Assembly (NCBI RefSeq): GCF_040373385.1
Contig: NZ_JBDXXH010000005.1
Coordinates: 202,548 to 266,547, forward strand
Length of the DNA: 64,000 bases
Direction: 5' to 3'
Source: Nitratidesulfovibrio sp.
Lineage (GTDB): Bacteria > Desulfobacterota > Desulfovibrionia > Desulfovibrionales > Desulfovibrionaceae
Shown here: piece after piece, positions 2,696 to 17,306 of the stretch
Numbering within the stretch: the stretch's first letter is position 1
Layout: each line of letters opens with the position of its first letter
Position numbers and translations under genes: made by a program
Notes under the pieces: generated by a model
Seen by the model: only the letters and a program-made list of their open reading frames with translations
Told to the model about the DNA's origin: nothing
The model's database searches: none

Positions 2696-3418
2696 TCAGT
2701 TCCTTCGCCAAGGCGAGGAACCGTGCGTGATTCCGTCGGGTTGCAGGTGGAGCGGCAGGGTGCTCCTCCCGGCGGAACGCTGCACGGAAGGAACCGCGAA
2801 GCCGGGCGCAGAACCTGCGCCGGGGGCTTCCGGCGGAAAGCCACCACCCGTTGCGCCGGTGTGTTCCCCGTAGCGGGAAGTTCCGTGCGCACGGGCTGAC
2901 AATGGTGTCGCGTTGTCGAAAAGGCCTTCGCCAGCGTTCGGGCTGGCGTGCGGGGGCAGGTACAGCAGGCTGCGCAGCGAGGCGGCGACCACATGCATGG
3001 TGAACACCAGCCAAGCGCAGACCAGGGCCGCGCAGGCGATGCGGGCCGGGTCGCCGGGCAGGGCGGCGGCAATCACGCCCAGCCCGGCCGCCAGAAGGCA
3101 CGAGAGCCCCGGCGCAAGGCCGCGCGAGGTGTGGCCGGGCGTGTCGCAGGCACGTCCGGCGCCCGCGGGCGGCGCTGGAATGGTGGAGCCTTCGGTCGCA
3201 CCGTGGTACGTGAACGGCAGCACGTCCGCGTGGGCACCGGCAACCATGACCATGGCGCGCCCCGCGCCGTGGCGGCGGAGTGCATGGCTGGCTGGCGTGT
3301 GGCGTGGCGCGGCGTGCATGGCAGTGTCCCGTATCCGGGCGGCAGGGGCCCGCAAGATTCTGTTTCTGTCGATGCCCCTTCCGGCGGCAGCCGGTGCGGG
3401 GCGGCACGGCGGCACCAT
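2696..3418 (-). CDS. Hypothetical small membrane protein with two transmembrane segments
   Basis: No family recognised. The frame has the strong G/C third-position bias of real genes here over most of its length. It encodes two adjacent hydrophobic segments (GLAPGLSCLLAAGLGVIAA and IACAALVCAWLVFTMHVVAA) followed by a long polar Gly/Pro/Ser-rich tail. It lies 139 bp upstream of the EAL gene on the same strand and may be co-transcribed. No good ribosome binding site precedes 3418. An internal ATG at 3253 (MVMVAG) is an equally likely start and would give about 185 residues. It could also be a chance frame, so confidence is moderate. Confidence 0.45.
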   Translation of the reverse strand: MVPPCRPAPAAAGRGIDRNRILRAPAARIRDTAMHAAPRHTPASHALRRHGAGRAMVMVAGAHADVLPFTYHGATEGSTIPAPPAGAGRACDTPGHTSRGLAPGLSCLLAAGLGVIAAALPGDPARIACAALVCAWLVFTMHVVAASLRSLLYLPPHASPNAGEGLFDNATPLSARAHGTSRYGEHTGATGGGFPPEAPGAGSAPGFAVPSVQRSAGRSTLPLHLQPDGITHGSSPWRRN

Positions 3419-3631
3419 GCCGTCCGTGCTGAAAGGATAGCAAAACAGGGGCCAACGGCGGCAACCCGGCGAATTTCAAGGCGTCGCGGGTGGCGAGGCA
3501 GGCGTACGAGAGTCTGCGGCGTGTGTTATAATGACAAATTTGAACATGAAGCGCGTGCTTGCAGGAACAAAAACGTAAACTGAAGAGTGTTTTGCAGGGC
3601 GAAAAAGTGGGCGTTTTCCCGAACATTCCGC

Positions 3632-3662
3632 TTGACAGCCTTTGCGGGGCGGGCGTAGGTAT
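3632..3662 (+). promoter_or_regulatory. Candidate promoter of the aromatic cluster
   Basis: A perfect TTGACA (3632-3637) is followed about 18 bp later by the weak -10 candidate TAGGTA (3656-3661). Transcription would start about 30 nt before the leader peptide ATG, as expected for an attenuator leader. The 3480-3640 stretch upstream is more A+T-rich than its surroundings. Confidence 0.45.
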
Positions 3663-3703
3663 CGCGAAACACCTGAAACGGATAACGTCAGGACACCACG
3701 ACA

Positions 3704-3808
3704 ATGCATTCCACCTCCGCCACCTTCACCACTGCCTATCGTACCAACTATTACTTTTGGTACTTTTTTAGCTATGGAGAAGCCCGTGGCCGCATGGAGC
3801 GTGCGTAA
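3704..3808 (+). CDS. Aromatic leader peptide (34 aa) of the aro/trp supercluster
   Basis: A 34-codon ORF (ATG 3704, TAA 3806) whose residues 16-22 read YYFWYFF: seven consecutive aromatic residues covering Tyr, Phe and Trp. Phe8, Tyr12 and Tyr24 bring the total to ten aromatics. This is the composition of a transcription-attenuation leader sensing charged tRNA-Phe, tRNA-Tyr and tRNA-Trp together. A weak AGGA lies about 10 nt before the ATG. The ORF is followed by a terminator (3844-3885) and contains, just after the aromatic codons, a segment (3782-3791) complementary to the terminator's 5' arm. The peptide itself probably has no function beyond ribosome stalling. It sits directly ahead of the first aromatic biosynthesis gene. 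Confidence 0.88.
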   Translation: MHSTSATFTTAYRTNYYFWYFFSYGEARGRMERA

Positions 3809-3843
3809 GCATCTGACGAGGGTGTAAACACACGAAGACTCAA

Positions 3844-3885
3844 GGGGCCGCGGGCGAAAAGCCGGCGGCCCCTTTCTGTTTTTTT
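3844..3885 (+). terminator. Attenuator terminator of the aromatic leader
   Basis: The stem GGGGCCGCGGGC (3844-3855) pairs with GCCGGCGGCCCC (3861-3872) with one mismatch and a short GAAAA loop, then a T-rich run TTTCTGTTTTTTT. The alternative antiterminator pairs GCCCGTGGCC (3782-3791, inside the leader ORF) with GGCCGCGGGC (3846-3855): ten consecutive pairs including one G-U. A ribosome stalled at the aromatic codons (3749-3769) would leave 3782-3791 free and favour antitermination. Confidence 0.85.
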
Positions 3886-4112
3886 CGGCGGTGCGTTACG
3901 CGCGGCGCACCCCGAAAACGTGTGATCCGGAAGACCGGGCGCCCCGCAAGGCCGCCCGAGGTCCGACGCCTGACGCTGCCGCATCAGCAGTACCCGGTAC
4001 GCGGGGGGATTGCCCCCCGGCGCCCGCGACCCGACGGTCCGGGCGCAAGGCAAGGAAACACCACCACGGCCAGTTGCGCCGCAACCTTTCCGAAAGATCA
4101 GGGGAACATACG

Positions 4113-4910
4113 ATGCAAATCGGCAAAAGAATCAGGATGGAGCGCATTTTCAATCGAAAAACCGGGCGCGCCGTCATCGTGCCGCTGGACCACGGCGTGA
4201 GCGTGGGGCCCATCTACGGCCTTGTGGACATGCGTGAGACCGTGAACCAGGTGGCCGAGGGCGGCGCGGATGCCGTGCTCATGCACAAGGGCCTGGTGCG
4301 CTGTGGCCACCGCGAGGGTGGCCGTGACGTGGGCCTCATCATCCACCTTTCCGCATCCACCTCCCTTTCCCCCCGCCCCAATGCCAAGACCCTGGTCGCC
4401 ACCGTGGAAGACGCCATCAAGCACGGCGCCGACGGCGTGTCCGTCCACGTGAACCTTGGCGACGAGACCGAACGCGACATGCTGGCCGACCTTGGCCGCG
4501 TGGCCACCGTGGCCAACGACTGGGGCATGCCGCTTCTGGCCATGATGTACGCCCGCGGCCCCCGCATCAAGAACGAGTTCGATCCCGAAGTGGTGGCCCA
4601 TGCCGCCCGCGTGGGTGTGGAGCTGGGCGCCGACGTGGTCAAGGTGGCCTACACCGGCGACATGGACAGCTTCGCCCACGTGGTGGCCTCGTGCTGCGTG
4701 CCCGTGGTCATCGCGGGCGGTCCCAAGCTGGATTCCACCCGCTCGTTCCTGCAGATGGTCCACGACGCGGTGCGCGCTGGCGCTGCCGGTCTTTCCGTGG
4801 GCCGCAACATCTTTCAGCATGAACGCACCCCTGCCCTCGTCAAGGCCCTGCGCGGCCTGGTGCACGAGGATTGGGATGTGGAGCAGGCGATGGCTCTCGT
4901 CGGCGAATAG
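4113..4910 (+). CDS. 2-amino-3,7-dideoxy-D-threo-hept-6-ulosonate (ADH) synthase
   Basis: A 265-residue class I aldolase of the FbaB/DhnA group. In the archaeal-type aromatic pathway it condenses an aspartate-semialdehyde unit with a sugar-phosphate-derived unit to give ADH, replacing DAHP synthase. Support comes from [11 protein letters not shown] near residue 25, the [10 protein letters not shown] strand, and the Schiff-base lysine region VVKVAYTGD near residue 180, followed by the phosphate-binding IAGG and GLSVGRNIF motifs. The next gene is 3-dehydroquinate synthase II, the partner enzyme of this route. The start at 4113 begins [13 protein letters not shown]; upstream in-frame codons belong to the leader region. 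Expression is likely set by the upstream attenuator. Confidence 0.88.
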
Positions 4911-4950
4911 CTTCCCGCGGCGTATCGGCGCGCGGGCGGTGTCGGACGGC

Positions 4951-5083
4951 GGCTTCCGGTCGGTCACGTACCAAAGAGTACGCTCCCTCCCGGAATCCTT
5001 GTCCTCCTTGCCGGCGCACCGATACGCGCGCGGGAAGCGGTCGGGTTCGAGCGGTTGCCATCTCCTTGCCAGAGAACGAAATT
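4951..5083 (+). repeat. Foldback repeat element, copy 1 (left arm missing)
   Basis: The gene-free stretch 4911-5236 contains this element. Its core (4960-4988) has the hairpin CGTAC-CAAAGA-GTACG (4967-4982), enclosed by TTCCGG/CCGGAA. Its right end GCCAGAGAACGAAAT (5068-5082) matches the right arms of the other copies; no matching left arm is seen. A further imperfect inverted repeat of about 21 bp (4911-4931 with 5016-5037) encloses the core. It may attenuate or punctuate transcription between the two genes. Confidence 0.7.
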
Positions 5084-5236
5084 GCTCTGAATCCCGACAC
5101 GCCCGAAGAGGCCCGAGCTCCTCGCCTGATGAACTGGAATGTCCTTGTTCCTTCAGAATGGGCGGCCCCTGCTGTGGCCGCACTCTGGGTGGGTTGAAAG
5201 AGCGGTTCGCCGCCATGACAAAAATGTGAGGGGTTG

Positions 5237-6208
5237 ATGCGGACCATTCTTTTCAAGAGCGTGCCTTTCGACAAGGGTCTGGTGACCCTGGCCCTGGAGT
5301 CGGGCGTGGACGGCATCATCGTGCCGCGCGCCCAGGTGGATTCGGTGGCGGCGCTGGCCAGGTGCCGGGTGCTGGCCGACGAGGACGTGGCGACCATAGC
5401 GCTGGCGGCCAAGGCCGACGAAGAGGACGCCGCCGCGCGTCTGGCGCGGGGCGAAACCGTGGTGCTGGCGCGCGGGTGGGAGATCATTCCGGTGGAGAAT
5501 CTGTTGGCCCAGTCCGACGATGTGGCCGTGGAAGTGGCCGACCTTTCCGAGGCGCGCCTTGCGGCGGGCATTCTGGAGCGGGGCGTGTCCACCGTGGTGG
5601 TGCTGCCCGAGGGCGCAGGCGAACTGAAGTCCATCGTGGCCGACCTCAAGCTGTCGCAGGGCTGCATGGACCTGGTCCCCGGCGTGGTCACGGCGGTGGA
5701 GAACGTGGGCCTTGGCCACCGGGTGTGCGTGGACACCATGTCCATGCTGCGCCGGGGGCAGGGCATGCTGGTGGGCAATTCCAGCGCGTTCACCTTCCTG
5801 GTGCACGCCGAGACGGAACACAACGAATACGTGGCCGCGCGGCCGTTCCGCATCAATGCCGGTGCCGTGCACGCCTATGCCCAGATGCCCGGCGACAGGA
5901 CCACCTATCTTGAGGAACTGCGCGCAGGCGACGAGGTGCTCATCGTCAGTGCCGACGGTTCCACCACCGTGGCCACCGTGGGCAGGCTGAAGGTGGAGGC
6001 GCGCCCCATGCTGCTGGTGCGCGCGAAAGTGGGCGACGTGGAGGGCGCGGTGTTCCTGCAGAACGCGGAAACCATCCGCTTGACCCGCCCGGACGGCACC
6101 CCGGTGAGCGTGGTGAGCCTGAAGGAAGGCGACCAGATCCTGTGCCGCACCGATTGCGCGGGCCGTCACTTCGGCATGCGCATCAAGGAGGACATCAAGG
6201 AATGCTGA
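5237..6208 (+). CDS. 3-dehydroquinate synthase II (archaeal-type AroB')
   Basis: A 323-residue protein of the DHQ synthase II family, which converts ADH to 3-dehydroquinate with NAD by oxidative deamination and cyclisation. Family hallmarks are the N-terminal barrel (GVDGIIVPRAQVDSV), the central KSIVADLKLSQGCMDLVPGV region, CVDTMSMLRRGQGMLVGNSS, EYVAARPFRINAGAVHAY and the C-terminal beta region ending in CAGRHFGMRIKE. The ATG at 5237 follows GAGGGG at good distance; the TTG three bases earlier was rejected. It lies downstream of ADH synthase and 34 bp before pheA, so the cluster contains both first steps of the alternative pathway. No classical aroB is visible in the window. Confidence 0.92.
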   Translation: MRTILFKSVPFDKGLVTLALESGVDGIIVPRAQVDSVAALARCRVLADEDVATIALAAKADEEDAAARLARGETVVLARGWEIIPVENLLAQSDDVAVEVADLSEARLAAGILERGVSTVVVLPEGAGELKSIVADLKLSQGCMDLVPGVVTAVENVGLGHRVCVDTMSMLRRGQGMLVGNSSAFTFLVHAETEHNEYVAARPFRINAGAVHAYAQMPGDRTTYLEELRAGDEVLIVSADGSTTVATVGRLKVEARPMLLVRAKVGDVEGAVFLQNAETIRLTRPDGTPVSVVSLKEGDQILCRTDCAGRHFGMRIKEDIKEC

Positions 6209-6242
6209 TGCGCACCACGATGCAACGCCGGGGGAAGCGGCC

Positions 6243-7463
6243 ATGAGCCTCACCGACGACAAGGACCCCCATTGGCGCGGGGATGACGTAGCCGCCAGCG
6301 CCGCCCACTCCCCCAACGGCACGGACGACGGCGCAACCCCGGCCTCGCCGTCTGCCGATCCGGAAGCCGCCCTGGCCGGGCGTTTGGGGCAGATCCGCCA
6401 CGAGATCGACGGGCTGGACGGCGACCTGCTGCACCTGTTGAACCGCCGCGCCTCGCTGAGCCTGGAGGTGGGCCGCATCAAGGCCGACGACGCGGGCATC
6501 GTGTTCAAGCCCTTTCGCGAGCGCGAGGTGCTGGAAAATCTCATGGCCGCCAACGTCGGGCCGCTGCCCAACGAGCACCTGCGCTCCATCTGGCGCGAGA
6601 TTCTTTCCTCCTCGCGCAGCCTGCAACGGCCCCAGAAGGTGGCCTACCTTGGGCCGGAGGGCACCTTTTCGTACTTTGCGGGCGTGGAATTTCTCGGCAA
6701 GGCCGTGGAATACATGCCGCACAAGGATCTGGACGGGGTGTTCCGCGCCGTGCACGACCGGCAGTGCGAGCTTGGCGTGGTGCCGCTGGAAAATTCGCTG
6801 CACGGCACCGTGGGGCAGAGTCTGGACCTGTTCCTGTCGCACGAGGTATTCATCCAGTCCGAGCTGTTCTGCCGCATCAGCCATTGCCTGCTGACCACGG
6901 AAACCAGCCTGGCCGACGTGACCACGGTGTACTCGCACCCGCAGCCGCTGGCCCAGTGCGGCGGCTGGCTGCGCCAGGCCCTGCCGGGGGCGCGGATCAT
7001 CCCGGCGGATTCCACCGCATCGGCGGCGCGCCGGGTGGTGGGCGAGAAGGGCGCGGCGGCCATCGGACACCGCAGCCTGGCCACACTGCTGGGGCTGAAC
7101 ATTCTGGCGCGTGGCATAGAGGATCAGCCGGACAACTGGACGCGCTTCGTGGTCATCGGCCCCGCTCCGGCGGGCCAGCCCGGCACGGACAAGACCTCCA
7201 TGCTGTTCTCCGTGCCGGACAGGCCCGGTGCGCTGGCCGAGGTGCTGAACCTGCTGGCCCGCGAAGGCATCAACATGAAGAAGCTGGAATCGCGGCCCCT
7301 GCGTGGCGAAAAATGGAAATACGTGTTCTTCGTGGACGTGGAATGCGACCTTGGCAACGAGGACTACGGCCGGGTAGTGCATGAACTGCGCAGGCTGTGT
7401 CATACCCTCAGGATTTTGGGGAGCTACCCCGCCGGGCCGCAGCTTGATATGAGTGGTGACTAG
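6243..7463 (+). CDS. pheA: Chorismate mutase / prephenate dehydratase (P-protein)
   Basis: A bifunctional 406-residue enzyme converting chorismate to prephenate and then phenylpyruvate on the phenylalanine branch. The N-terminal chorismate mutase helix bundle (IRHEIDGLDGDLLHLLNRR) covers about residues 45-125. The prephenate dehydratase domain (YLGPEGTFS, VPLENSLHG, and the catalytic Thr in TRFVVIG) covers about 135-305. The C-terminal ACT domain (about 318-400) keeps the Phe-binding motifs GALAEVLN and ESRP, so end-product inhibition by Phe is expected. The first 40 residues are polar and variable. It follows the DHQ synthase II gene by 34 bp. Confidence 0.95.
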   Translation: MSLTDDKDPHWRGDDVAASAAHSPNGTDDGATPASPSADPEAALAGRLGQIRHEIDGLDGDLLHLLNRRASLSLEVGRIKADDAGIVFKPFREREVLENLMAANVGPLPNEHLRSIWREILSSSRSLQRPQKVAYLGPEGTFSYFAGVEFLGKAVEYMPHKDLDGVFRAVHDRQCELGVVPLENSLHGTVGQSLDLFLSHEVFIQSELFCRISHCLLTTETSLADVTTVYSHPQPLAQCGGWLRQALPGARIIPADSTASAARRVVGEKGAAAIGHRSLATLLGLNILARGIEDQPDNWTRFVVIGPAPAGQPGTDKTSMLFSVPDRPGALAEVLNLLAREGINMKKLESRPLRGEKWKYVFFVDVECDLGNEDYGRVVHELRRLCHTLRILGSYPAGPQLDMSGD

Positions 7464-7475
7464 CGCGGCGCGACC

Positions 7476-7503
7476 TTTTGTCCTCTGGCATCGTCAGGCA
7501 TCG
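7476..7503 (+). repeat. Foldback repeat element, left arm only (copy 5)
   Basis: TTTTGTCCTCTGGC (7476-7489) followed by the TCGTCAGG shared with other copies. No right arm is seen before aroA, so this is a remnant in the pheA-aroA gap, which is filled with other palindromic repeats. Confidence 0.5.
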
Positions 7504-7570
7504 CCTTTCCTTACCGCGCGTGCCGTCGATGACGGTGGCAGGCACGGCAGGGTGAATCAAGGTTCTCCAA

Positions 7571-7697
7571 CCCCCAAATAAAAAGTTTGGGGGGAGCGGC
7601 AGCCGTTAGGCGAGCGCGCAGCGCGAGCCTTACGGATGGCGACAGCAAAGCTGGGGTCCGGGGGAAGGAGACCCTTTCCCAAAGGGTCCCTTCCCCC
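7571..7697 (+). repeat. Palindromic intergenic repeat cluster between pheA and aroA
   Basis: Three hairpin units in 130 bp: CCCCCAAA/TTTGGGGG (7571-7593); a module with CCGTTAGGCGAGC and GCGAGCCTTACGG (7603-7635); and a long stem GGGGGAAGG.ACCCTTT / AAAGGGT.CTTCCCCC (7660-7697). Units one and three recur together at 48712-48778 and, inverted, at 51209-51272; the middle module recurs at 25250-25278 and 56100-56127. They may act as partial terminators or mRNA 3'-end stabilisers within the aromatic cluster. Confidence 0.7.
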
Positions 7698-7738
7698 GGT
7701 GGCTCTTCTTCCCATACGGATTGCCAAAAGGATTCATG

Positions 7739-9091
7739 ATGGAAAGCAAACGTGAAACCGTGATCGTGGCGGCGCCGCCGTCCAAGTCGGTGTCGCACCG
7801 CATGTTGATCGGGGCGGCACTGGCGGCGGGTGATTCGGTGGTGGAGCACGTGCTGGAAAGCCGCGACATCGAGCGCACGGCGGACATCTTGCGGGCTGCG
7901 GGCGCGCGCATAGAGCGGCAGGGCGACGGCAGGTTCGCGGTGTCGGGCGTGGCGGGCACGCCTGCGGGCGGATTCGACGCGCCGGCATCGTGCGACGTGC
8001 ACGAATCGGGCACCACTTGCCGCCTGCTGACGGCGGTACTTGCGGCGGGCAAGGGCCAGTTCCGCATCCACGGTGCGCCGCGCATGCACGAACGGCCCAT
8101 CGGCGAACTGGTGGACGTGCTGCGCGGGCGCGGGGTGCGCGTGACCTATGAAGGCCGCGAAGGCTGCCCGCCCCTGCTCATCGATTCCGACGGCATGTCC
8201 GGCGGGGCGACCGCCATCGGCCTTGGCGAATCCAGCCAGTACCTGTCGGGGCTGTTGCTGGCCGCGCCGCTTACCAGCGGGCTGACCATCGAGGTTTCCG
8301 GCGACAAGGTGGTGTCGTGGCCGTACGTGGCCCTGACCCTGCAAGCGCTGGAAGACTTCGGCATCGGCTTTCGCGTGGAAACGCGCGAAACCCCGCGCGG
8401 CAAGTGGCAGGCCGACGACTGGAGAATGTTGCGTGAAGTTCGGCCCGGCCTGGTACGCTTCGTGGTGTCGCCGGGGGTGTACCGCGCGGGCAACTACCGC
8501 GTGGAGGGCGACTGGTCCAATGCCTCGTACTTCCTGGCGGCGGGGGCCGTGGGGCCGCGCCCGGTGCGCGTGGCGGGCCTGCGGGTGGATTCGTTGCAGG
8601 GCGACAGGGCCATGCTGGACATCCTTGGCCGCATGGGCGCGCGCTTCGAGCGGGCCGACAACGGCGTGGTGGTGGCGCCTTCCAGCCTGACCGGGGTGGA
8701 AGTGGACATGGGCCACTGCCCGGACCTGGTGCCCACGGTGGCGGCCACGGCGGCCTTTGCGCAGGGCGTGACCACCATCCGCAACGTGGCGCACCTGCGC
8801 ATCAAGGAATGCGACCGGCTGTCCGCCCCGGCGGCGGAATTGCGCAAGGCCGGGGTGCGGGTGGAGGAACTGGACGACGGCCTCGTGGTGCACGGTTCGC
8901 TGCGTAGCGGCGGTCCGGCCCCGGTTGTTGACGAAAAAGTGATGCCATTTTTGTCATACGGCGATCATCGCATGGCCATGAGTCTTGCGCTTCTGGGGTT
9001 TGCCGGGGTACAGGTGGCTTTGGACGACCCGGCCTGCGTGGCCAAGTCGTTCCCGCATTTCTGGAACGAGTGGGAAAAGGTACGCGCATGA
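7739..9091 (+). CDS. aroA: 3-phosphoshikimate 1-carboxyvinyltransferase (EPSP synthase)
   Basis: A 450-residue enzyme joining phosphoenolpyruvate to shikimate 3-phosphate, the penultimate step to chorismate. Diagnostic motifs are PPSKSVSHR near the N-terminus, ESGTTCRLLTA (PEP-binding loop), YRVEGDWSNASYFLAAG, HLRIKECDRL and SYGDHRMAM near the C-terminus. The length fits the family. Two adjacent ATGs (7736, 7739) follow AAGGA; 7739 was chosen because it gives normal 6-nt spacing. It overlaps tyrA by ATGA, so the two are translationally coupled. Confidence 0.95.
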   Translation: MESKRETVIVAAPPSKSVSHRMLIGAALAAGDSVVEHVLESRDIERTADILRAAGARIERQGDGRFAVSGVAGTPAGGFDAPASCDVHESGTTCRLLTAVLAAGKGQFRIHGAPRMHERPIGELVDVLRGRGVRVTYEGREGCPPLLIDSDGMSGGATAIGLGESSQYLSGLLLAAPLTSGLTIEVSGDKVVSWPYVALTLQALEDFGIGFRVETRETPRGKWQADDWRMLREVRPGLVRFVVSPGVYRAGNYRVEGDWSNASYFLAAGAVGPRPVRVAGLRVDSLQGDRAMLDILGRMGARFERADNGVVVAPSSLTGVEVDMGHCPDLVPTVAATAAFAQGVTTIRNVAHLRIKECDRLSAPAAELRKAGVRVEELDDGLVVHGSLRSGGPAPVVDEKVMPFLSYGDHRMAMSLALLGFAGVQVALDDPACVAKSFPHFWNEWEKVRA

Positions 9092-9879
9092 ACGCAGTGA
9101 AAATCGCGCTGGTCGGCGCGGGGGGCCGCATGGGCCGCCTGTTCGCCGACAGGCTCTCCGCCGCAGGATACGCGGTGGGGGGCGTGGACCGTCCGCTGAC
9201 GCAGGATGTCTTGCGTCATGCCGTGGACGGTGCCGCCGCAGTGCTGTTGTGCGTGCCCGTGGAGGCCATGGATGAGGTGCTGCGCCAGCTGGCCCCGCTG
9301 CTGAACGGCATGCAGGTGCTGGCGGACATCACGTCCGTCAAGGCGCGCCCCATGCAGGTCATGGAGCGCCACTACGCGGGCCCCGTGGTGGGCACCCACC
9401 CCCTGTTCGGGCCGGTGCCGCCTGCGGGTGATCCTGCGGAAAACCTGCGCGTGGCCATCACCCCCGGCGATGCGGCCCACGAAACGGACGTAGCGCTCAT
9501 CGAGCGCGTGTTCGCCGACATGGGCTGCGTGCCCTTCCGCACCACCGCCGACGAGCATGACGAGGCCGCCGCCTGCATCCAGGGCCTCAACTTCATCACC
9601 AGCGTCGCCTATCTTGCCACGCTGGCCCACCGCGACGAGCTGACCCCCTTCATCACCCCCTCGTTCCGCCGCCGCCTCGACGCGGCGCGCAAGATGCTCA
9701 CCGAGGACGCATCCCTCTTCGAAGGCATGTTCGAAGCCAATCCCCACAGCCAGACCGCTGTCCGCAGCTACCTGTCGTTCCTCAACTTCGCCGCCGCCGG
9801 CGATGTGGACGTGCTGGTAGACCGCGCCCAGTGGTGGTGGCGTTCGCACACCGAAAGGGGAGGAGTGCGTCCGTCATAG
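9088..9879 (+). CDS. tyrA: Prephenate dehydrogenase
   Basis: A 263-residue enzyme oxidising prephenate to 4-hydroxyphenylpyruvate on the tyrosine branch. The NAD-binding motif VGAGGRMGRLFADRL is at residues 7-21; VLADITSVKARPMQVM and GPVVGTHPLFGP are the family catalytic regions; the helical dimerisation domain follows. ATG 9088 overlaps the aroA stop. The C-terminus reads AQWWWRSHTERGG: three consecutive TGG codons (9832-9840), 39 nt before the stop and about 80 nt before a terminator hairpin that precedes trpE. The 3' end therefore seems also to serve as a Trp-sensing leader. No ACT domain is present. Confidence 0.93.
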   Translation: MNAVKIALVGAGGRMGRLFADRLSAAGYAVGGVDRPLTQDVLRHAVDGAAAVLLCVPVEAMDEVLRQLAPLLNGMQVLADITSVKARPMQVMERHYAGPVVGTHPLFGPVPPAGDPAENLRVAITPGDAAHETDVALIERVFADMGCVPFRTTADEHDEAAACIQGLNFITSVAYLATLAHRDELTPFITPSFRRRLDAARKMLTEDASLFEGMFEANPHSQTAVRSYLSFLNFAAAGDVDVLVDRAQWWWRSHTERGGVRPS

Positions 9880-9955
9880 CTGCACGCGAGTAGTAGAGTA
9901 ACGGACAAGGCAATTGCAGGCCGCGCTCCCTCCCCGGGAGCGCGGCTTTTTGTTT
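9857..9955 (+). promoter_or_regulatory. Trp attenuator overlapping the end of tyrA
   Basis: The terminator stem CCGCGCTCCC (9921-9930) / GGGAGCGCGG (9936-9945) is followed by CTTTTTGTTTT. The competing antiterminator pairs GGGGAGGAGTGCG (9857-9869, in the tyrA 3' end) with CGCGCTCCCTCCCC (9922-9935): 13 pairs with one bulge and one G-T/U. The same 9857-9869 region can instead pair with CGCAC (9845-9849) just after the Trp codons. A ribosome stalled on TGG TGG TGG would mask 9845-9849 and favour antitermination; one that reaches the tyrA stop (9877-9879) would cover 9857-9869 and let the terminator form. Confidence 0.82.
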
Positions 9956-9999
9956 TCAATGCACCACTCACGGCACGCCGAACTTGAAGGAGAACCCAG

Positions 10000-11568
10000 A
10001 TGGAAATGCCCGAAATGCCCAACACGCCTGATCAGACTGGTACGCCCGAGCAGGCGGAAACCCCGGAACCCGCCACGATCACCATGGCCGCACCCACTCC
10101 CGCCAACGGCTGCGCCCCCACGGGTGCGGCGGATGACATTCCCCCGCTGCCCGAAGGCGGCGAGATCGTGCTGCGCCAGACGGGCCGCTGGCTGGAGGCC
10201 GACGTGGACACCCCCATCAGCGTCTTCCTCGGCATGGTGGGGTCCGGGCAGGGCATCCTGCTGGAAAGCGCCGAAGTGGATGGCCGCTGGGGCCGGTACA
10301 GCGTCATTGCCTTCAACTTCCTGCTGCGGCTTGGCTGCCGCGACGGCAAGCTGGAAGTGGCCGTGCGCGATCCGCGCCTTGCCCCGTTGCGCAGGTTTGA
10401 CGGCATGGACTTCATCGAGGGCACCCGCGCGGTGATGCGCGCCCTGCGCATCGAACCGGACGCGGCCTTCGCCGACCAGCCTCCCATCACCCGCGCCCTG
10501 TACGGCTACTTCGGCTACGGCGTGTCCGGGCTGTTCGAGCCCAAGCTGGCCAAGGTGCTGCCGACCTCGTCGGCGGAAGCCTGCCTGGCCCTGCCCGGCA
10601 CCGTGGTGCTGTTCGACCACCTGTACAACCGGCTGTGCCAGCTTTCGCTCACCGACCTGCCGGGGGCCAGGGTGGACCGCAGCCAGGTGGATCGTACCCC
10701 CGAACCGCCGGAAGTCGGCCCCGTCGCCAACGTGCCGGAAGAGGCCGTGTACACCCGCGCCGTGGCCCGGGTGAAGGAGATGATCCGCCAGGGCGAGGCC
10801 ATTCAGGTGGTGCTGTCCACCCGCTTCCAGGCCTCGTTCAGCGGCGATCCGTTCACCCTGTACCGCCGTCTGCGCCGCATCAACCCTTCGCCGTACATGT
10901 TCTTCATGCGGCTGCCCGGCGTCTCGCTGCTGGGTTCCTCGCCGGAGGTCATGGTGCGCTGCCGGGCGGACAAGTTGCAGGTCAGCCCCATTGCGGGCAC
11001 CCGCCCGCGCGGCACGGACGATGCCCACGACGCCGCCCTTGCCCAGGAACTGCTGGAAGACCCCAAGGAACGCGCCGAGCACGTCATGCTGGTGGACCTG
11101 GGCCGCAACGATCTTGGCCGCATTGCCGCGCCGGGCACCGTGCAGGTGGAGCGGTTCATGGACGTGGAAAAGTTTTCGCACGTCATGCACCTGACCTCGC
11201 GCGTCACCGCGCAGATCGAACCGGGGCGCGATGCGCTGGACGTGCTGGCCGCCACCTTCCCGGCGGGCACCGTCAGCGGCGCCCCCAAGGTGCGGGCCAT
11301 GGAAATCATCTCCGAGGCGGAAGGCCTGGCGCGCGGCCCCTACGCCGGGGCCATTGGCTGGCTGGGACTGGACCGGGACAGCGTGAACCTGGACACCGGC
11401 ATCACCATCCGCTCCCTGTGGGTGCGCGACGGCCAGGTGCACTGGCAGGCGGGCGCGGGCATCGTGTTCGATTCCGTGCCCGAGATGGAATGGAAGGAAT
11501 GCAACAACAAGGCCGCCGTCATCCGCGCCGCCGTTACCGGAGGGGAATATGTTCCTGTTAATCGATAA
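10000..11568 (+). CDS. trpE: Anthranilate synthase component I
   Basis: A 522-residue chorismate-using subunit, active with TrpG in the first step of tryptophan synthesis. The Trp feedback motif LLES-X10-S is intact at residues 87-101. The catalytic domain shows GEAIQVVLSTRF, SPIAGTRPRG, DLGRNDLGR, SHVMHLTSRV, GTVSGAPKVRAME and AGAGIVFDS. GAAGGAGAACCC gives a good ribosome binding site before ATG 10000. The first 40 residues are a Pro/Thr/Ala-rich extension beyond the usual N-terminus. It overlaps trpG by 20 bp. Expression is probably gated by the attenuator just upstream as well as by the distal aromatic leader. Confidence 0.96.
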   Translation: MEMPEMPNTPDQTGTPEQAETPEPATITMAAPTPANGCAPTGAADDIPPLPEGGEIVLRQTGRWLEADVDTPISVFLGMVGSGQGILLESAEVDGRWGRYSVIAFNFLLRLGCRDGKLEVAVRDPRLAPLRRFDGMDFIEGTRAVMRALRIEPDAAFADQPPITRALYGYFGYGVSGLFEPKLAKVLPTSSAEACLALPGTVVLFDHLYNRLCQLSLTDLPGARVDRSQVDRTPEPPEVGPVANVPEEAVYTRAVARVKEMIRQGEAIQVVLSTRFQASFSGDPFTLYRRLRRINPSPYMFFMRLPGVSLLGSSPEVMVRCRADKLQVSPIAGTRPRGTDDAHDAALAQELLEDPKERAEHVMLVDLGRNDLGRIAAPGTVQVERFMDVEKFSHVMHLTSRVTAQIEPGRDALDVLAATFPAGTVSGAPKVRAMEIISEAEGLARGPYAGAIGWLGLDRDSVNLDTGITIRSLWVRDGQVHWQAGAGIVFDSVPEMEWKECNNKAAVIRAAVTGGEYVPVNR

Positions 11569-12127
11569 CTACGACTCGTTCACCTTCAATCTGGTGCAGG
11601 CGTTCTACGGCCTTGGGCTGAAGCCGGTTGTCGTCCGCAACGACGACCCCGCCGTGCCCGCCATGGCCGAAGACCCGGCGCTGGAAATGGTGTGCATCTC
11701 GCCCGGCCCCAGCCACCCGCGCAACGCGGGCTTCTGCCTTGATTTCCTGTCCCGCCTGCCGCACCGCGTACCCGTGCTGGGCGTGTGCCTGGGCCATCAG
11801 GTGCTGGGCCTGTTCGCCGGGGCCACCGTGGATGTGGGCCCGCGCATCATGCACGGCAAGACCTCGGACATCACCCACGACGGGCAGGGCCTGTTCCACG
11901 GCGTGCCCAGCCCCATGCAGGTGGGCCGCTACCATTCGCTCATCGTGCATGCCGAGGAACGCCCCGACCTGCTGGCCGTCACCGCCCGCGCCCCCGAAGG
12001 CGAGGTGATGGCCCTGCGCTACACCGACCGCCCGTGGGTGGGCGTGCAGTTCCACCCCGAATCCGTGCTGACCCCCGACGGCGTGCGCATGCTCGCCAAC
12101 TTTCCCGCCCAGGTGGCGGGGAAGTGA
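11549..12127 (+). CDS. trpG: Anthranilate synthase component II (glutamine amidotransferase)
   Basis: A 192-residue class I glutamine amidotransferase supplying ammonia to TrpE. It begins FLLIDNYDSFTFNLVQ and carries the catalytic Cys in LGVCLGHQ (about residue 80) and the His/Glu pair in VGVQFHPES (about residue 170). It is a free-standing subunit, not fused to TrpD. The start overlaps the end of trpE, with AGGGG as ribosome binding site, indicating coupled translation of the two subunits. Confidence 0.95.
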   Translation: MFLLIDNYDSFTFNLVQAFYGLGLKPVVVRNDDPAVPAMAEDPALEMVCISPGPSHPRNAGFCLDFLSRLPHRVPVLGVCLGHQVLGLFAGATVDVGPRIMHGKTSDITHDGQGLFHGVPSPMQVGRYHSLIVHAEERPDLLAVTARAPEGEVMALRYTDRPWVGVQFHPESVLTPDGVRMLANFPAQVAGK

Positions 12128-12150
12128 GAGCGGGGCGACGAAGAGGTTTT

Positions 12151-12193
12151 TTGTTCGCCTCCGGCGGGCAGGGGGCAGGCCCCCTGCACCCCC
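12151..12193 (+). repeat. GC-rich palindromic repeat between trpG and trpD
   Basis: Contains the inverted repeat GCAGGGGGC-AG-GCCCCCTGC (12169-12188) in a longer unit (CGCCTCCGGCGGGCAGGGGG...CCTGCACCCC). A similar unit lies at 48650-48688 between other genes. Its role is unknown; it may punctuate the trp transcript. Confidence 0.6.
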
Positions 12194-12240
12194 TTTAGGT
12201 GGGCTGCCCGTCAACAAGGAACTCCTGAAGGAGACAGCAA

Positions 12241-13257
12241 ATGCAGACTGCAACGTCCACCATACTGGAAACACTGGCCACGGGCATGGACCTTGCCCCG
12301 GAAATGGCCGAGGCCGGGTTCTCGCGCCTGATGGATGGCGAGATGACCTGTGCGCAGGCGGGTTCGTTCCTGATGGGCCTGCGCATGAAGGGCGAGACCC
12401 CGCAGGAACTCACCGAGGCGGTGCGCGCCGCGCTGGCCCGCGCCGTGCGGGTGACCGGCATTGACGGTCCCACCATTGACATCGTGGGCACCGGCGGCGA
12501 TGGCCGCTCGTCGTTCAACTGCTCCACGGCAACGGCGCTGACCCTTGCGGGCATGGGCCACCGGGTGGTCAAGCACGGCAACCGCGCGGTGTCATCCTCG
12601 TGCGGGGCGGCGGACGCGGTGGAGGGCCTGGGCCTGCCGCTGGAACTGGACCCGGAGGACGTGCGCAACCTGGTGGCGCAGCGCAACTTCGCCTTCCTGT
12701 TCGCACCGCGCTTCCACCCGGCGTTCCGCAACGTCATGCCCATCCGGCGCGAAATGGGCGTGCGCACCCTGTTCAACCTGCTGGGGCCGCTGCTCAACCC
12801 GGCCCGGCCCACCCACATGCTGCTGGGCGTGGCCCGCGCCGAACTGCTGCCCCTGATGGCCCAGACCCTGCTGCTGACCGGCGTGCGCCGGGCGGCGGTG
12901 GTGCATGGCGCGGGCGGCTACGACGAACTGACGCCCATGGGCCCCGCGCACATCATGCTGTTGGAGGGCGACGGCGAAGGCCACGGCACGCTTACGGAAA
13001 TCAGCATGGACCCGTCGGACTACGGCATTTCGCCGTGCACCCCGGAGGAACTGGCCGTGCCCGACCGCGACACCGCCGTGCGCGTGCTGCGCGAACTGCT
13101 GTCCGGCGGCGGCCCCGCCCCCATGCGCGACATGCTGGTGCTGAACGTGGGCATGGCCCTGCACCTGCTGGAACCGGGCCTGGCCCTGCCCGATGCCATG
13201 GCCGCCGCGCGGCTGGGGCTGGCCGCCGGGGCAGGGGGGAAGGTGCTGCATGCTTGA
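12241..13257 (+). CDS. trpD: Anthranilate phosphoribosyltransferase
   Basis: A 338-residue enzyme transferring phosphoribose from PRPP to anthranilate. Family motifs are DIVGTGGDGRSSFNCST (PRPP-binding glycine loop, residues 80-96), VKHGNRAVSS, FAPRFHPAFRNVMPIRREMG, TLFNLLGPLLNP and the C-terminal acidic/Gly helices. AAGGAGACAG precedes ATG 12241. The stop overlaps the start of trpC by 8 bp. The 113-bp gap upstream contains a GC-rich palindromic repeat. Confidence 0.95.
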   Translation: MQTATSTILETLATGMDLAPEMAEAGFSRLMDGEMTCAQAGSFLMGLRMKGETPQELTEAVRAALARAVRVTGIDGPTIDIVGTGGDGRSSFNCSTATALTLAGMGHRVVKHGNRAVSSSCGAADAVEGLGLPLELDPEDVRNLVAQRNFAFLFAPRFHPAFRNVMPIRREMGVRTLFNLLGPLLNPARPTHMLLGVARAELLPLMAQTLLLTGVRRAAVVHGAGGYDELTPMGPAHIMLLEGDGEGHGTLTEISMDPSDYGISPCTPEELAVPDRDTAVRVLRELLSGGGPAPMRDMLVLNVGMALHLLEPGLALPDAMAAARLGLAAGAGGKVLHA

Positions 13258-14203
13258 TCGTTTCCGCATCGCCAAGCAGCCGGAACTGGACCGGTTGCGC
13301 AAGCTGGCCGAGGCTGGCGGGCTGCCCGCGCCGCTGGCTGTAGGCACCCCGCGTCCCGACTTCCTGCGGGCACTGCTGGACCGCTCGGGGTACCGGGGGG
13401 CGCCGGTGGCGGTCATCGCCGAATACAAGCGCGCCTCGCCCTCGCGCGGGGTCATCGAGACGGGTGTGTCGCCCGAGGACGCGGCCACGGCCTACGCCAC
13501 CGCCGGGGCCACGGCCATCTCGGTGCTGACCGAGGAGGCGTACTTCGGCGGTGACCTGGCCTATCTGGGGCGCATGGCGGGCGTCGATCCGTCCATTCCC
13601 CTGTTGCGCAAGGACTTCATCATGGACCCGTTGCAGGTGACGGCCACGGCGGCCACCCCGGCGGCGGCGCTGCTGCTCATCGTGCGGTTGACGCCCGATG
13701 CGCGCACCCTGCGCGACCTGCGCGAGCAGGCCGAAGCGCACGGCATGCACGCCGTGGTGGAGATCTTCGACGAGGCGGATCTGGCGCTGGCCCGCGAATC
13801 CGGCGCGCGGATCATCCAGGTGAACAACCGCGACCTGGAAACCCTGGCCGTGGACCGCACCGCCTGCCTGCGCCTGGGGCCGCTGAGCCAACCCGACGAA
13901 GTGTGGATAGCGGCCAGCGGCATCAGCGAGAACCGTCACTTGGCGAAAGCCGCCGATGCCGGGTATGACGCGGCATTGGTGGGCACCGCGCTCATGGACG
14001 GCGGAGACCTTGAAGGTTCGCTGCTGCGTCTTCTGGGGCGCGAGGGCACTCCGTCCTTTCGCCCTCCGGCGTCGTCAGGCTGCGCCGCCTGCTCCGGTCA
14101 CGTACGGTCAGAGTACGCTCCCTGCGCGTCGGGCTCGCCTTCCTTGCCGGAGAACGAAAATCCTGTCGTGCCAGATTGCGGCGGGAGTGAAGGTGCCCAA
14201 TGA
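13250..14203 (+). CDS. trpC: Indole-3-glycerol-phosphate synthase with repeat-derived C-terminal extension
   Basis: Closes the indole ring by decarboxylating CdRP. The TIM barrel is complete: AVIAEYKRASPSRG (substrate/catalytic Lys), SVLTEEAYFGGDL, LLRKDFIMDP, HAVVEIFDEADL, IIQVNNRDL, AASGI and ALVGTALM. The enzyme should end near residue 266, but the frame continues for 51 more residues to 317. These codons (14048-14200) coincide with a copy of the dispersed foldback repeat, so the tail is very probably acquired sequence of no enzymatic role. The start overlaps trpD and the stop overlaps trpF (ATGA). Confidence 0.94.
   Translation: MLDRFRIAKQPELDRLRKLAEAGGLPAPLAVGTPRPDFLRALLDRSGYRGAPVAVIAEYKRASPSRGVIETGVSPEDAATAYATAGATAISVLTEEAYFGGDLAYLGRMAGVDPSIPLLRKDFIMDPLQVTATAATPAAALLLIVRLTPDARTLRDLREQAEAHGMHAVVEIFDEADLALARESGARIIQVNNRDLETLAVDRTACLRLGPLSQPDEVWIAASGISENRHLAKAADAGYDAALVGTALMDGGDLEGSLLRLLGREGTPSFRPPASSGCAACSGHVRSEYAPCASGSPSLPENENPVVPDCGGSEGAQ
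14055..14163 (+). repeat. Foldback repeat element, copy 2 (inside the 3' end of trpC)
   Basis: Left arm TTTCGCCCTCCGGC (14057-14070) and right arm GCCGGAGAACGAAAA (14146-14160) pair with two C-A mismatches. The core hairpin is CGTAC/GTACG (14101-14117) with a GGTCAGA loop. It is read in frame as the TrpC tail. Confidence 0.75.
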
Positions 14204-14904
14204 GTGCGTCAAAACCAGCCGCCCTGTTCGATAGTCCCTCCCGCCTGCTGGTGAAGGTCTGCGGCCTGACCCGGCAGCAGGACGCGGACGCCTGCGCAGA
14301 GGCCGGGGTGGACCTGTGCGGGTTCATCTTTCACCCGGCCAGCCCGCGCGCGGTAACGCCCGCCGTGGCCGCCGGGCTGCACAGCCACGGCATGGCGCGG
14401 GTGGGGGTGTTCGTGAAGCAGTCCGCCGACGAGGTGCTGGCCATCATGGACGCGGCCCGGCTGGACTTTGCCCAGTTGCACGGCGGGCAGGATGCCGCCT
14501 TCTGCGACCGGGTGGGGGCGGAGCGGGTCATCCGCGTGGCATGGCCGCAGCGCCATGTGGATGCATCGGGCCTGAACGCAGGGGCGGGCCTCGCTTCGCT
14601 GCACGCCGAACTGGCCGGGCTTGCCCCGCACGTGCGCTGCTTTCTGCTGGATGCGGGCACCAGCGGCGGCGGGCACGGCGCCACCATGGACTGGGCCGCG
14701 CTGCGCGGGCTGGCCCCCGGTGCCCCATGGCTGCTGGCAGGCGGGCTGACCCCGGACAACGTGGCCAGCGCCGTTGCCGCCTGCGGCGGCCATGACCCTG
14801 CCATGCTGATCGGCGTCGATCTCAATTCGGGGGTGGAAAGCGCCCCCGGCCGGAAGGATGCACCCCGCGTGGCCGCCGCCCTTGCGGCGCTGCGCACGGC
14901 GTAG
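14200..14904 (+). CDS. trpF: Phosphoribosylanthranilate isomerase
   Basis: A 234-residue TIM-barrel enzyme converting phosphoribosylanthranilate to CdRP, acting before TrpC. The general-base Cys is in VKVCGLTR (about residue 21), followed by GFIFHPASPR, DFAQLHGGQ, the general-acid Asp in LLDAGTSGGGHG, and the phosphate-binding LLAGGLTPDNV and GVDLNSGVE. The first 15 residues are an extension before the barrel. ATG overlaps the stop of trpC, giving coupled translation even after the trpC tail. Confidence 0.94.
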   Translation: MSASKPAALFDSPSRLLVKVCGLTRQQDADACAEAGVDLCGFIFHPASPRAVTPAVAAGLHSHGMARVGVFVKQSADEVLAIMDAARLDFAQLHGGQDAAFCDRVGAERVIRVAWPQRHVDASGLNAGAGLASLHAELAGLAPHVRCFLLDAGTSGGGHGATMDWAALRGLAPGAPWLLAGGLTPDNVASAVAACGGHDPAMLIGVDLNSGVESAPGRKDAPRVAAALAALRTA

Positions 14905-14943
14905 TCGATACCAACTGGCGCCCCGGCGCCAAAGGATACCACC

Positions 14944-16128
14944 ATGAAAAAAGGCTATTTCGGCGAGTTCGGCGGGCAGTTCGTGCCCGAGCTGCTCATG
15001 CCGCCGCTGCGGGAACTGGAAGCCGCCATGCGCGACATCCTGCCCTCGGACAAGTTCCGGGCGGAACTGGACGACCTGTTGCGCAACTTCGCGGGGCGCG
15101 AAACCCCGCTCACGGCCTGCCCCACGCTGTCGGCGGAACTGGGCGTGCACCTGTGGCTGAAGCGCGAAGACCTGCTGCACACCGGCGCGCACAAGGTCAA
15201 CAACACCCTTGGGCAGGCGCTGCTGGCCAAATACATGGGCAAGACCGCGCTGGTGGCGGAAACGGGCGCGGGCCAGCACGGCGTGGCCACGGCGGCGGCT
15301 GCGGCCCGGCTGGGGCTGGAATGCGTGGTGTACATGGGCGCGACGGACGTGGTGCGCCAGGCCCCCAACGTCATGCGCATGAAGCTGCTGGGGGCCAAGG
15401 TGGTGCCTGTGCAGAGCGGCACCAAGACCCTGAAGGACGCCATCAACGAGGCCCTGCGCTACTGGATAGCCCAGCAGGATTGCACCCACTACTGCTTCGG
15501 CACGGCGGCGGGCCCGCACCCCTTCCCCACGCTGGTGCGCGACCTGCAATGCGTCATCGGGCGTGAAACCCGCGCCCAGATGCTGGAACGCGTGGGCCGA
15601 CTGCCCGACATGGTGGTGGCCTGCGTGGGCGGCGGCTCCAACGCCATCGGCATGTTCCACCCGTTCGTGGATGACGCCTCGGTGCGCATCGTGGGGGTGG
15701 AGGCGGCAGGCACCGGCGAGCCGGGCTGCTACAACTCCGCGCCCATCAACCTGGGCCGCCCCGGCGTGCTGCACGGCCAGATGACCATGCTGCTGCAGGA
15801 CGGGGACGGGCAGATCGAGCCGTCGCACTCCGTGTCCGCCGGGCTGGACTACCCCGGCGTGGGGCCGGAGCACGCGCATCTGGGGGCCACTGGCCGGGCG
15901 ATGTACGGCATGGCCACCGACAGTCAGGCGCTGGAAGCCTTCCAGGCCCTGACCCGGCGCGAGGGCATCATCCCCGCGCTGGAATCGTCGCACGCGCTGG
16001 CGTGGGTGCTGAACAACCGGGACAAGCTGCCTGCCGGGGGCCACGTGGTGGTCAACCTTTCGGGTCGGGGCGACAAGGACATGGAAATCGTGCGGGAAGT
16101 GCTGTTCCGCGAAGGAGAGCTGGCATGA
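14944..16128 (+). CDS. trpB: Tryptophan synthase beta subunit
   Basis: A 394-residue PLP enzyme joining indole to serine, in an alpha2-beta2 complex with TrpA. It is of the TrpB1 type: [12 protein letters not shown] at the N-terminus, [16 protein letters not shown] with the PLP lysine, [13 protein letters not shown], the PLP-phosphate loop [29 protein letters not shown] and LSGRGDKD at the C-terminus. AAAGGA precedes the ATG. The stop overlaps the trpA start. Confidence 0.96.
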
Positions 16129-16937
16129 GCGCGGCCATTCATACCGACATGAACGACATGCTGCCCGATGCCCCGGTGTCGCGGCTGGAAGCCCGCGTGG
16201 CCGCCGCCAACGCGGCGGGGCGGCCCGCGCTGGTGCCCTTTCTGACGGCGGGCTTTCCCACCCTGGACCGCTTCTGGGAGGAAATGGACGGCCTTGATCG
16301 CGGCGGCGCGGACGTCATCGAAATCGGCGTGCCGTTCTCCGACCCGGTGGCCGACGGCCCGGTAGTGGAGGCGGCATCCCTGCGGGCGCTGGAAAACGGC
16401 GTCACCCTGCGCTGGATACTGGACGGCCTGAAGGCCCGCGCGGGCCGCTACGACGCCGAGCTGGTGCTGATGGGCTACTACAACCCGTTCCTGCAATACG
16501 GGCTGGAAAACCTGGCGGTGGACGCGGCGGCGGCGGGGGTGGCGGGCTTCATCGTGCCCGACCTGCCGCTGGAGGAAGACGGCGAGATGCGCGCACTGTT
16601 GGCCGCGCGGGGCATAGACCTCATTGCCCTTGTCGGCCCCAACACCAGCGAGGAACGCATGGCCGAATATGCCGCCGTGGCCTCCGGCTACGTGTACGTG
16701 GTGTCGGTGCTGGGCATCACCGGCGTGCGCGAAGGCCTGCCGCCGGAAGTGCCGCAGACGCTGGCCCGCGCCCGCAAGGCCTTCCGCCTGCCGCTGGCGC
16801 TGGGCTTCGGCATCAAGGAGCCGAAGCAGCTGGAAGGCTTTCCCGACAGGCCCGACGCCGTGGTGTTCGGCTCTGCCCTGTTGCGCCACATCGACGCGGG
16901 CAACAGCGCGGAATCGTTCCTGGCCGCGTGGAAGTAG
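16125..16937 (+). CDS. trpA: Tryptophan synthase alpha subunit
   Basis: A 270-residue TIM-barrel enzyme cleaving indole-3-glycerol phosphate to indole for TrpB. Catalytic acids are visible in [17 protein letters not shown] (Asp and Glu). Other motifs are [31 protein letters not shown] and [10 protein letters not shown]. It is the last gene of the cluster, with ATG overlapping the trpB stop (GGAGAGCTGGC ribosome binding site), and is followed by a terminator at 17045-17083. Confidence 0.95.
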
Positions 16938-17044
16938 CGGGGCGGGACAGACGAGCGGGGCCGGGCCGGGTAGAGTAGGAGAGGATTGGACAGGATTGGG
17001 CCTTGCCCGCCGCGCCGCTGCGGCGCAACAGTATTCGCAATCAT

Positions 17045-17083
17045 CGGGACCGTCCTGTCCTGCGCGGGGGGCGGTCCCGTTTT
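17045..17083 (+). terminator. Terminator after trpA
   Basis: Stem CGGGACCG (17045-17052) / CGGTCCCG (17072-17079), then TTTTC. The rest of the 369-bp gap (16938-17306) holds a TTGACA (17132-17137) with a weak TACCGG 17 bp downstream, a possible icd promoter, and no gene. Confidence 0.65.
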
Positions 17084-17306
17084 CATGCCCGAGGAGGGGG
17101 GGGACAGGGTGATTCCCTGCGCGGCCCCGTTTTGACAAAATCCGCCAAACCGGCTACCGGAACTGACCCCCAAGGGTACACCGGATCCCACCGGAAGCAC
17201 GTGATACAAGGCCGGGCGGTACGCCGTCCGGCCGCTTTTCGGCAGCACGACATCAGCACGACAGTACGGCCCCGCCCCGGCGGGGCCAGCGCAAAGGAGC
17301 GCCTCC

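Follow-up and report, generated by a model that had tools for sequence, protein, structure and literature searches.

The 3′ end of tyrA as a probable tryptophan-sensing leader of trpE in Desulfovibrionales

The sensors of attenuation systems are normally tiny throw-away peptides. In the E. coli trp operon, trpL carries tandem Trp codons, an antiterminator strand that starts about 14 nt after them, and an intrinsic terminator with trpE downstream. At E. coli rph-pyrE, the 3′ end of a structural gene leads the next gene through transcription–translation coupling, and the signal is the supply of pyrimidine nucleotides to the polymerase. The junction between tyrA and trpE in Nitratidesulfovibrio sp. 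resembles the first system in all of these parts and the second in that a structural gene leads its neighbour; it differs from rph-pyrE in that the putative signal is read at cognate codons for the amino acid of the pathway itself. It also differs from trpL: in place of a dedicated short peptide, the end of an enzyme gene of 263 codons in the middle of the operon serves as the putative leader, the antiterminator strand embedded in tyrA lies before the stop codon in many genera, and no strong 1:2 protector hairpin is seen in the predicted fold of the locus. On the features gathered in silico, the tyrA–trpE switch reads as trp-type attenuation, in which the new element would be the use of an enzyme gene as leader: tandem control codons in a translated leader, an intrinsic terminator, an antiterminator that excludes it in predicted folds and the codon-to-strand spacing are all present. 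A dedicated short leader peptide is usual, though perhaps not defining; here TyrA takes its place, and free leaders are found at unlinked trpE genes.

Searches of the open-licence literature in PMC yielded no description of a tyrA–trpE attenuator. For rph, only a putative terminator is mentioned in the available part of one article (PMC5892946). Attenuators are usually sought as short leader ORFs in the untranslated 5′ region; should enzyme genes also be able to lead their neighbours, switches internal to operons may have escaped notice. An Rfam search of the window (the whole 64,000-nucleotide stretch of DNA analysed) gave no match at gathering score, and the Rfam Trp leader (RF00513, the accession as given in the available part of PMC3766115) was absent at 9700–10050 even at E values up to 5. 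Four sub-threshold Rfam matches at 9700–10050 were considered as a known leader or riboswitch and rejected, as they belong to plant-virus, miRNA and Burkholderia sRNA models.

The genes of the cluster are, in order, ADH synthase (TIGR01949), dehydroquinate synthase II, pheA, aroA, tyrA, trpE and more trp genes, the last being named from their translations alone. The features discussed here are presented in Table 1. Besides its Pfam match, the window TyrA is matched by NCBIfam prephenate dehydrogenase models, all under their own cut-offs; its C-terminus reads ...AQWWWRSHTERGGVRPS. Four relatives with 95–97% TyrA identity to the window are named Nitratidesulfovibrio or Desulfovibrio. The initial annotation had placed three consecutive TGG codons at the end of tyrA and a terminator hairpin ahead of trpE; both are present, the codons in frame and the terminator as GGCCGCGCTCCC-TCCCC-GGGAGCGCGGCT (9919–9947, -26.8 kcal/mol) followed by the T-rich sequence TTTTGTTTT. 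The first 54 or so residues of TrpE (window 10000–10161) lie beyond the matches of most relatives, which begin near residue 55, and represent either a lineage-specific extension or a wrong start.

Table 1. Features of the aromatic cluster in the window and the basis on which each was placed
Feature	Position	Strand	Basis and remarks
Aromatic leader peptide MHSTSATFTTAYRTNYYFWYFFSYGEARGRMERA (F, Y and W), at the supraoperon head	3704..3808	+	ORF, relatives
Terminator of the upstream aromatic leader	3836..3877	+	Rank 3/277 in chance control
tyrA (prephenate dehydrogenase)	9088..9879	+	ORF; Pfam PDH_N, E 1.2e-17; 3′ end is also the putative leader coding region
Three consecutive Trp codons TGG TGG TGG (putative control codons)	9832..9840	+	In tyrA frame
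Antiterminator 5′ strand	9857..9869	+	Codes the TyrA tail, residues about 256–260 of P0001
Intervening hairpin across the tyrA stop, between the two antiterminator strands	9869..9906	+	Folds; presumed role as spacer or pause
tyrA stop codon TAG	9877..9879	+	Sequence; a ribosome there would mask part of the antiterminator strand (presumed footprint)
Antiterminator 3′ strand (terminator 5′ arm and loop)	9922..9935	+	Folds
Intrinsic terminator: hairpin 9919–9947 and T tract	9919..9957	+	Scan, fold, compensatory changes in relatives
trpE (anthranilate synthase component I), first of the putatively regulated trp genes	10000..11568	+	ORF, searches

We propose that the ribosome translating the end of tyrA very probably senses Trp on behalf of trpE and the trp genes downstream of it, by attenuation at the Trp codons. 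When charged tRNA-Trp is scarce, the ribosome would stall on the three TGG codons with its leading edge short of 9857; the strand 9857–9869 would be left free and would pair with 9922–9935 once that is transcribed, before the 3′ arm of the terminator exists. The antiterminator so formed would block the terminator, and RNA polymerase would read into trpE. With ample Trp, the ribosome would instead reach the tyrA stop and cover part of the same strand, so that the terminator would form and transcription would end before trpE; tyrA and the genes preceding it would be unaffected. In silico support for this comes from the parts themselves, from the mutual exclusion of the two structures, from their conservation, co-variation and spacing, and from the free leaders at unlinked trpE genes, whereas the stalling, the footprint, the timing and the direction of regulation are inferred.

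Concerning the RNA, 9857–9869 pairs with 9922–9935, which the initial annotation had named as complementary, over 12–13 pairs with one bulged C. The fold of 9856–9935 reaches -39.0 kcal/mol (z -4.81), a value that 0 of 200 shuffles equalled, and the folding check that the annotation had recommended gives two structures, terminator and antiterminator, which as predicted are mutually exclusive. The RNA that a ribosome at the tyrA stop would leave uncovered folds into the terminator. The terminator state is the more stable one at equilibrium (-44.0 kcal/mol, against -40.2 for the antiterminator), so the switch would have to be kinetic, with antitermination set by the order of synthesis; in known attenuators the outcome does depend on the order of RNA synthesis. 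The further pairing suggested between 9857–9869 and 9845–9849 does exist, as 9846–9849 with 9865–9868 in the fold of the ribosome-free transcript, but it is weak. No strong protector hairpin that would force termination without translation is found at the window locus, and with this weak protecting pairing alone untranslated messages may read through, unlike those of E. coli.

A terminator scan of 3400–17500 gave seven matches, among which the tyrA–trpE terminator has the longest stem (13 pairs); 7.4 matches were expected from shuffles, so the count alone proves nothing. A chance control was based on the complementarity of the 5′ arm of each hairpin with the 70 nt upstream of it, scored for 277 hairpins that resemble terminators (-16 kcal/mol or better) in the window and 20 stretches of 20 kb from the same genome (both strands; 464 kb, 11% of the genome). 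The tyrA–trpE hairpin ranks 2 of 277 (z -3.75), the terminator of the aromatic leader at 3836 ranks third (z -3.26), and z -2.5 is reached by seven of the 277.

The distribution of the switch was examined across the family and order. A TyrA match was obtained from 132 of the 149 genomes sampled from the family, from 138 of the 150 sampled from the order (the two samples overlap) and from 16 of the 17 sampled from genus g8, each sample being drawn from a larger group. Loci were called linked when a same-strand TrpE tblastn match lay within the 1.5–2 kb fetched downstream of tyrA; after removal of duplicate genomes, and of one incomplete TyrA, the linked set comprised 131 complete tyrA genes with trpE. 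A switch was called on two features counted from the last Trp codon: a terminator of -14 kcal/mol or better that starts no more than 85 nt from it, and a complementary arm (z of -1 or lower) that starts 5–22 nt after it. A terminator by this rule is found in 97 of the 131 linked loci and a complementary arm in every one of those 97, with a median z of -2.98; z is -2 or lower in 86 and weaker in the other 11. L081, which is counted among the 97, looks spurious. With a stricter arm-start window of 10–22 nt, five loci of genus g30, admitted at 5–22 nt, count as lacking the switch. Three or more W are present in 95 of the 97. TyrA tails with WWWW occur in L199, L202, L203, L204 and L271 (genera g53 and g51), and all five loci have the switch. 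Families f2 to f6 of the order carry the switch, as does the family of the window. Nine further order-level loci lie outside the 131: five carry the switch, and four have xWW and no TrpE match in the stretch. Outside the order, 20 of the 57 genomes of a phylum sample with a TyrA match were fetched; neither WWW in the last 60 TyrA residues nor a TrpE match in the stretch was found in any of the 20.

Relatives with the same gene order that lack the Trp codons or the hairpin had been named as a possible refutation. Linked loci without a switch do occur: 34 of the 131 have none by the rule, against the 97 that have one, and they may represent either losses or other solutions. The distance from the tyrA stop to the start of the TrpE match is under 60 nt in 21 of the 34; L098 and L078 are among these 21 because their TrpE match reaches further into the N-terminus. 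In L098, which the rule counts as lacking the switch, inspection by eye shows one whose T tract is imperfect. A further 11 linked loci (genera g11, g14, g15, g23, g33 and g43) retain WWW and have no recognisable switch. The g14 loci (L064, L073 and L088) keep WWW and are followed by trpE, with GC-rich hairpins that have no T tract; this arrangement may be a decayed or a different switch.

The position of the arm was compared across 98 tyrA loci of 24 genera, namely the 97 less L081 plus L177 and L182, which have the switch on contigs that run on for less than 200 nt past the tyrA stop. From the last TGG to the arm start the distance is 16.4 nt on average (sd 2.1, range 11–28); the 5–22 nt window for the arm belongs to the admission rule, but it excluded no linked locus with a terminator. 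The distance from the stop codon to the arm varies from -25 to +8 nt (sd 8.6). Since the distance from the codons is nearly constant while the stop moves, the arm appears to take its position from the Trp codons, which a stalling mechanism would need, and these lie about one ribosome front (12–20 nt) ahead of the antiterminator strand.

Co-variation was sought in both structures. In a 31-sequence alignment of relatives, compensatory changes are found in 10 of the 12 pairs of the terminator stem. A column scan of the antiterminator helix was not clear because its register differs between genera, and arms were instead swapped between genera. Cognate arms pair at -22.4 kcal/mol and swapped arms at -17.6 kcal/mol (n=30), a result that 0 of 20,000 permutations equalled; in 19 of the 30 cases the cognate arm ranks third of 30 or better, and its lowest rank is 22. 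The result holds for the tyrA-embedded loci only (-23.0 vs -17.8 kcal/mol, 0 of 20,000, n=24; best three in 16 of 24). In genus g22, TyrA tails ending ...GGVRQ/H go with terminator arms that contain CGCGTTCC and those ending ...GEVHQ with arms that contain GCACTTCT. Concerning conservation within genera, the 48 nt from WWW to the stop are identical in all seven genomes of the genus of the window, while 39-nt windows of the tyrA body vary there at 5–33% of sites. Reduced variability of the arm is clear in g1 and mixed elsewhere; in g5, g45, g48 and g56 the arm varies no less than the body of the gene.

In 57 genomes the stretch downstream of tyrA gave no trpE; it is at least 1 kb long in 54 of them. 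Loss of both the Trp codons and the pairing segments had been predicted where tyrA lies elsewhere. For the switch this was borne out, as it occurs in none of the 54 unlinked tyrA loci; the WWW did not follow the prediction, being kept in 30 of the 54 TyrA proteins. In 30 of the 57 genomes, chosen by us, trpE was sought and found in 25; in 24 of these 25 it is preceded by a small ORF with WW or WWW and then a terminator. WWW is present upstream of 23 and WW upstream of one (L205), and one (L228) has no leader by the rule. The median distance from the Trp codons to the arm of these free leaders is 16 nt, and the z of the arm is -2 or lower in 22 of the 24. The leader ORFs have 27–37 aa (57 aa in L225 from the most upstream start), and typical ones end in ...GWWWRIQLRGGDVRA or ...RWWWRVVDVKGGVRPA, resembling the TyrA tail WWWRSHTERGGVRPS. 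These leaders indicate that the unit which goes with trpE consists of the codons, the arm and the terminator, whether or not the ORF is tyrA. We lean slightly towards the view that the TyrA C-terminal tail across Desulfovibrionales has been shaped by the work of its mRNA as a Trp sensor, so that changes in TyrA (such as ...TGGVRQ vs ...TGEVHQ in one genus) track compensatory changes in the terminator, and that, where the cluster was split, as in the lineages of several genera, the sensor remained at trpE in the form of a free leader peptide (about 27–37 aa), derived from the end of the enzyme gene, or, in reverse, a leader was captured by tyrA. The switch would then suggest selection on a protein C-terminus for RNA reasons, and the natural series of embedded, free and lost forms offers material for studying the origin of leader peptides.

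The reading of the tyrA end as a Trp-sensing leader has to be weighed against two others. One is that an ordinary terminator ends the aro–tyrA operon, that trpE has its own promoter, that WWW is purely structural in TyrA and that the pairing is incidental. Part of the behaviour of the three W fits this. Their persistence in unlinked TyrA led us to reject WWW as a diagnostic of the switch, and the 11 linked WWW loci without a switch point the same way. In an alignment of 185 TyrA sequences the second W is present in 180 (97/97 with the switch, 34/34 linked without it and 49/54 unlinked), and being kept almost everywhere it looks like a feature of the protein. In an AlphaFold model of TyrA (mean pLDDT 89.6) WWW lies in the last helix (239–255), which together with its retention in unlinked TyrA suggests that the codons are partly there for the protein; residues 257–262, mostly encoded by the antiterminator strand, have pLDDT under 50. 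In a tree-corrected test of WWW against the switch, which is underpowered, the direction was never opposite, but the association is not significant: on average 1.6–1.7 of the 4–7 supported pairs agree, with no difference within the others (median p 0.5). Against this explanation, the first W is present in 96 of the 97 TyrA with the switch, 12 of the 34 linked without it and 31 of the 54 unlinked, so that it alone of the three appears to track the switch, with exceptions. The arm found at every linked locus with a terminator, its co-variation with the terminator, the constant codon-to-arm spacing and the recurrence of the module as a free leader at unlinked trpE also speak against incidental pairing. 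Concerning a separate promoter, only about 42 nt separate the T tract from the trpE ATG; a promoter scan of 3400–17500 found none anywhere, with 0.9 expected, and is too blunt to exclude one for trpE. Taking these points together, we consider an ordinary terminator very improbable.

The other explanation accepts a real attenuator and lets it sense general transcription–translation coupling at the tyrA end, in the manner of E. coli rph-pyrE, which is a precedent, instead of stalling at Trp codons. The same parts would indeed answer any slowing of the ribosome or polymerase. Against this, nearly all switch-bearing linked loci have three or more Trp codons and some members have four, WWW recurs in 23 of the 25 stretches upstream of unlinked trpE, the position of the arm is set by the Trp codons and not by the stop codon, and the regulated gene is trpE. 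Sensing of coupling alone has, in our judgement, very little chance of being the right account. Sensing of Trp at the codons is thus preferred, and the proposal of the initial annotation that the tyrA end serves as the leader of trpE is upheld in silico by the conserved anatomy, the co-variation of the arm, the codon-to-arm spacing and the free leaders at unlinked trpE.

The annotation had also placed the cluster under upstream control by all three aromatics, and this too gains support. The upstream leader peptide, which with its terminator occupies window 3704–3877, contains YYFWYFFSY, and an F/Y/W-rich leader with a terminator ahead of the aldolase gene is found in this genome and in 9 of 10 stretches from relatives. 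The aromatic leader is also present in L288, where trpE is unlinked, and in L289, which is linked without the switch; by the rule there is none in L280. A putative attenuator ahead of aroA′ in D. vulgaris is listed in Table 7 of Song et al. 2005, from the Merino database (PMC1173090), and probably corresponds to the upstream leader at 3704–3877; it belongs to the same supraoperon, and the available part of that article mentions neither a tyrA–trpE attenuator nor the Trp codons of TyrA. From the leader in relatives and the listed aroA′ attenuator, the head of the cluster probably responds to the aromatic amino acids as a group and the tyrA end to Trp. If this is true, the switch would add Trp-specific control within a cluster that is governed at its head by all three aromatics.

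Expression data bearing on the junction come from D. hydrothermalis, which we take to belong to genus g8, where all 16 TyrA-bearing genomes have the switch; the strain is tied to the switch only through this presumed genus. In the available part of an RNA-seq study (PMC4162548), trpE, trpG and trpD are down by log2 2.6–2.7 at 10 vs 0.1 MPa, while aldolase, dehydroquinate synthase, pheA, aroA and tyrA, and also trpC and trpF, are not listed there as changed. At 26 vs 0.1 MPa, the same source has all ten genes from aldolase to trpF down. In these data a step in expression falls at tyrA/trpE, suggestive of the switch, with pressure and not Trp as the stimulus; the same part of the study does not speak of attenuation.

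Further small elements were seen at and beyond this junction. In genus g5 (L054, L070, L072, L086 and L099), the sequence just 3′ of the terminator holds, before trpE, a site that resembles a Shine-Dalgarno sequence and a very short ORF of ATG, a few codons and TGA; in L072 and L099 the short ORF is followed, still before trpE, by a GAAAACCGGAA-like stretch. Elsewhere in the genome of the window, two more strong terminators are unusually complementary to the sequence upstream of them, at L231 5430 (+ strand, z -2.89) and L242 8382 (- strand, z -2.76), and these are possible further attenuators.
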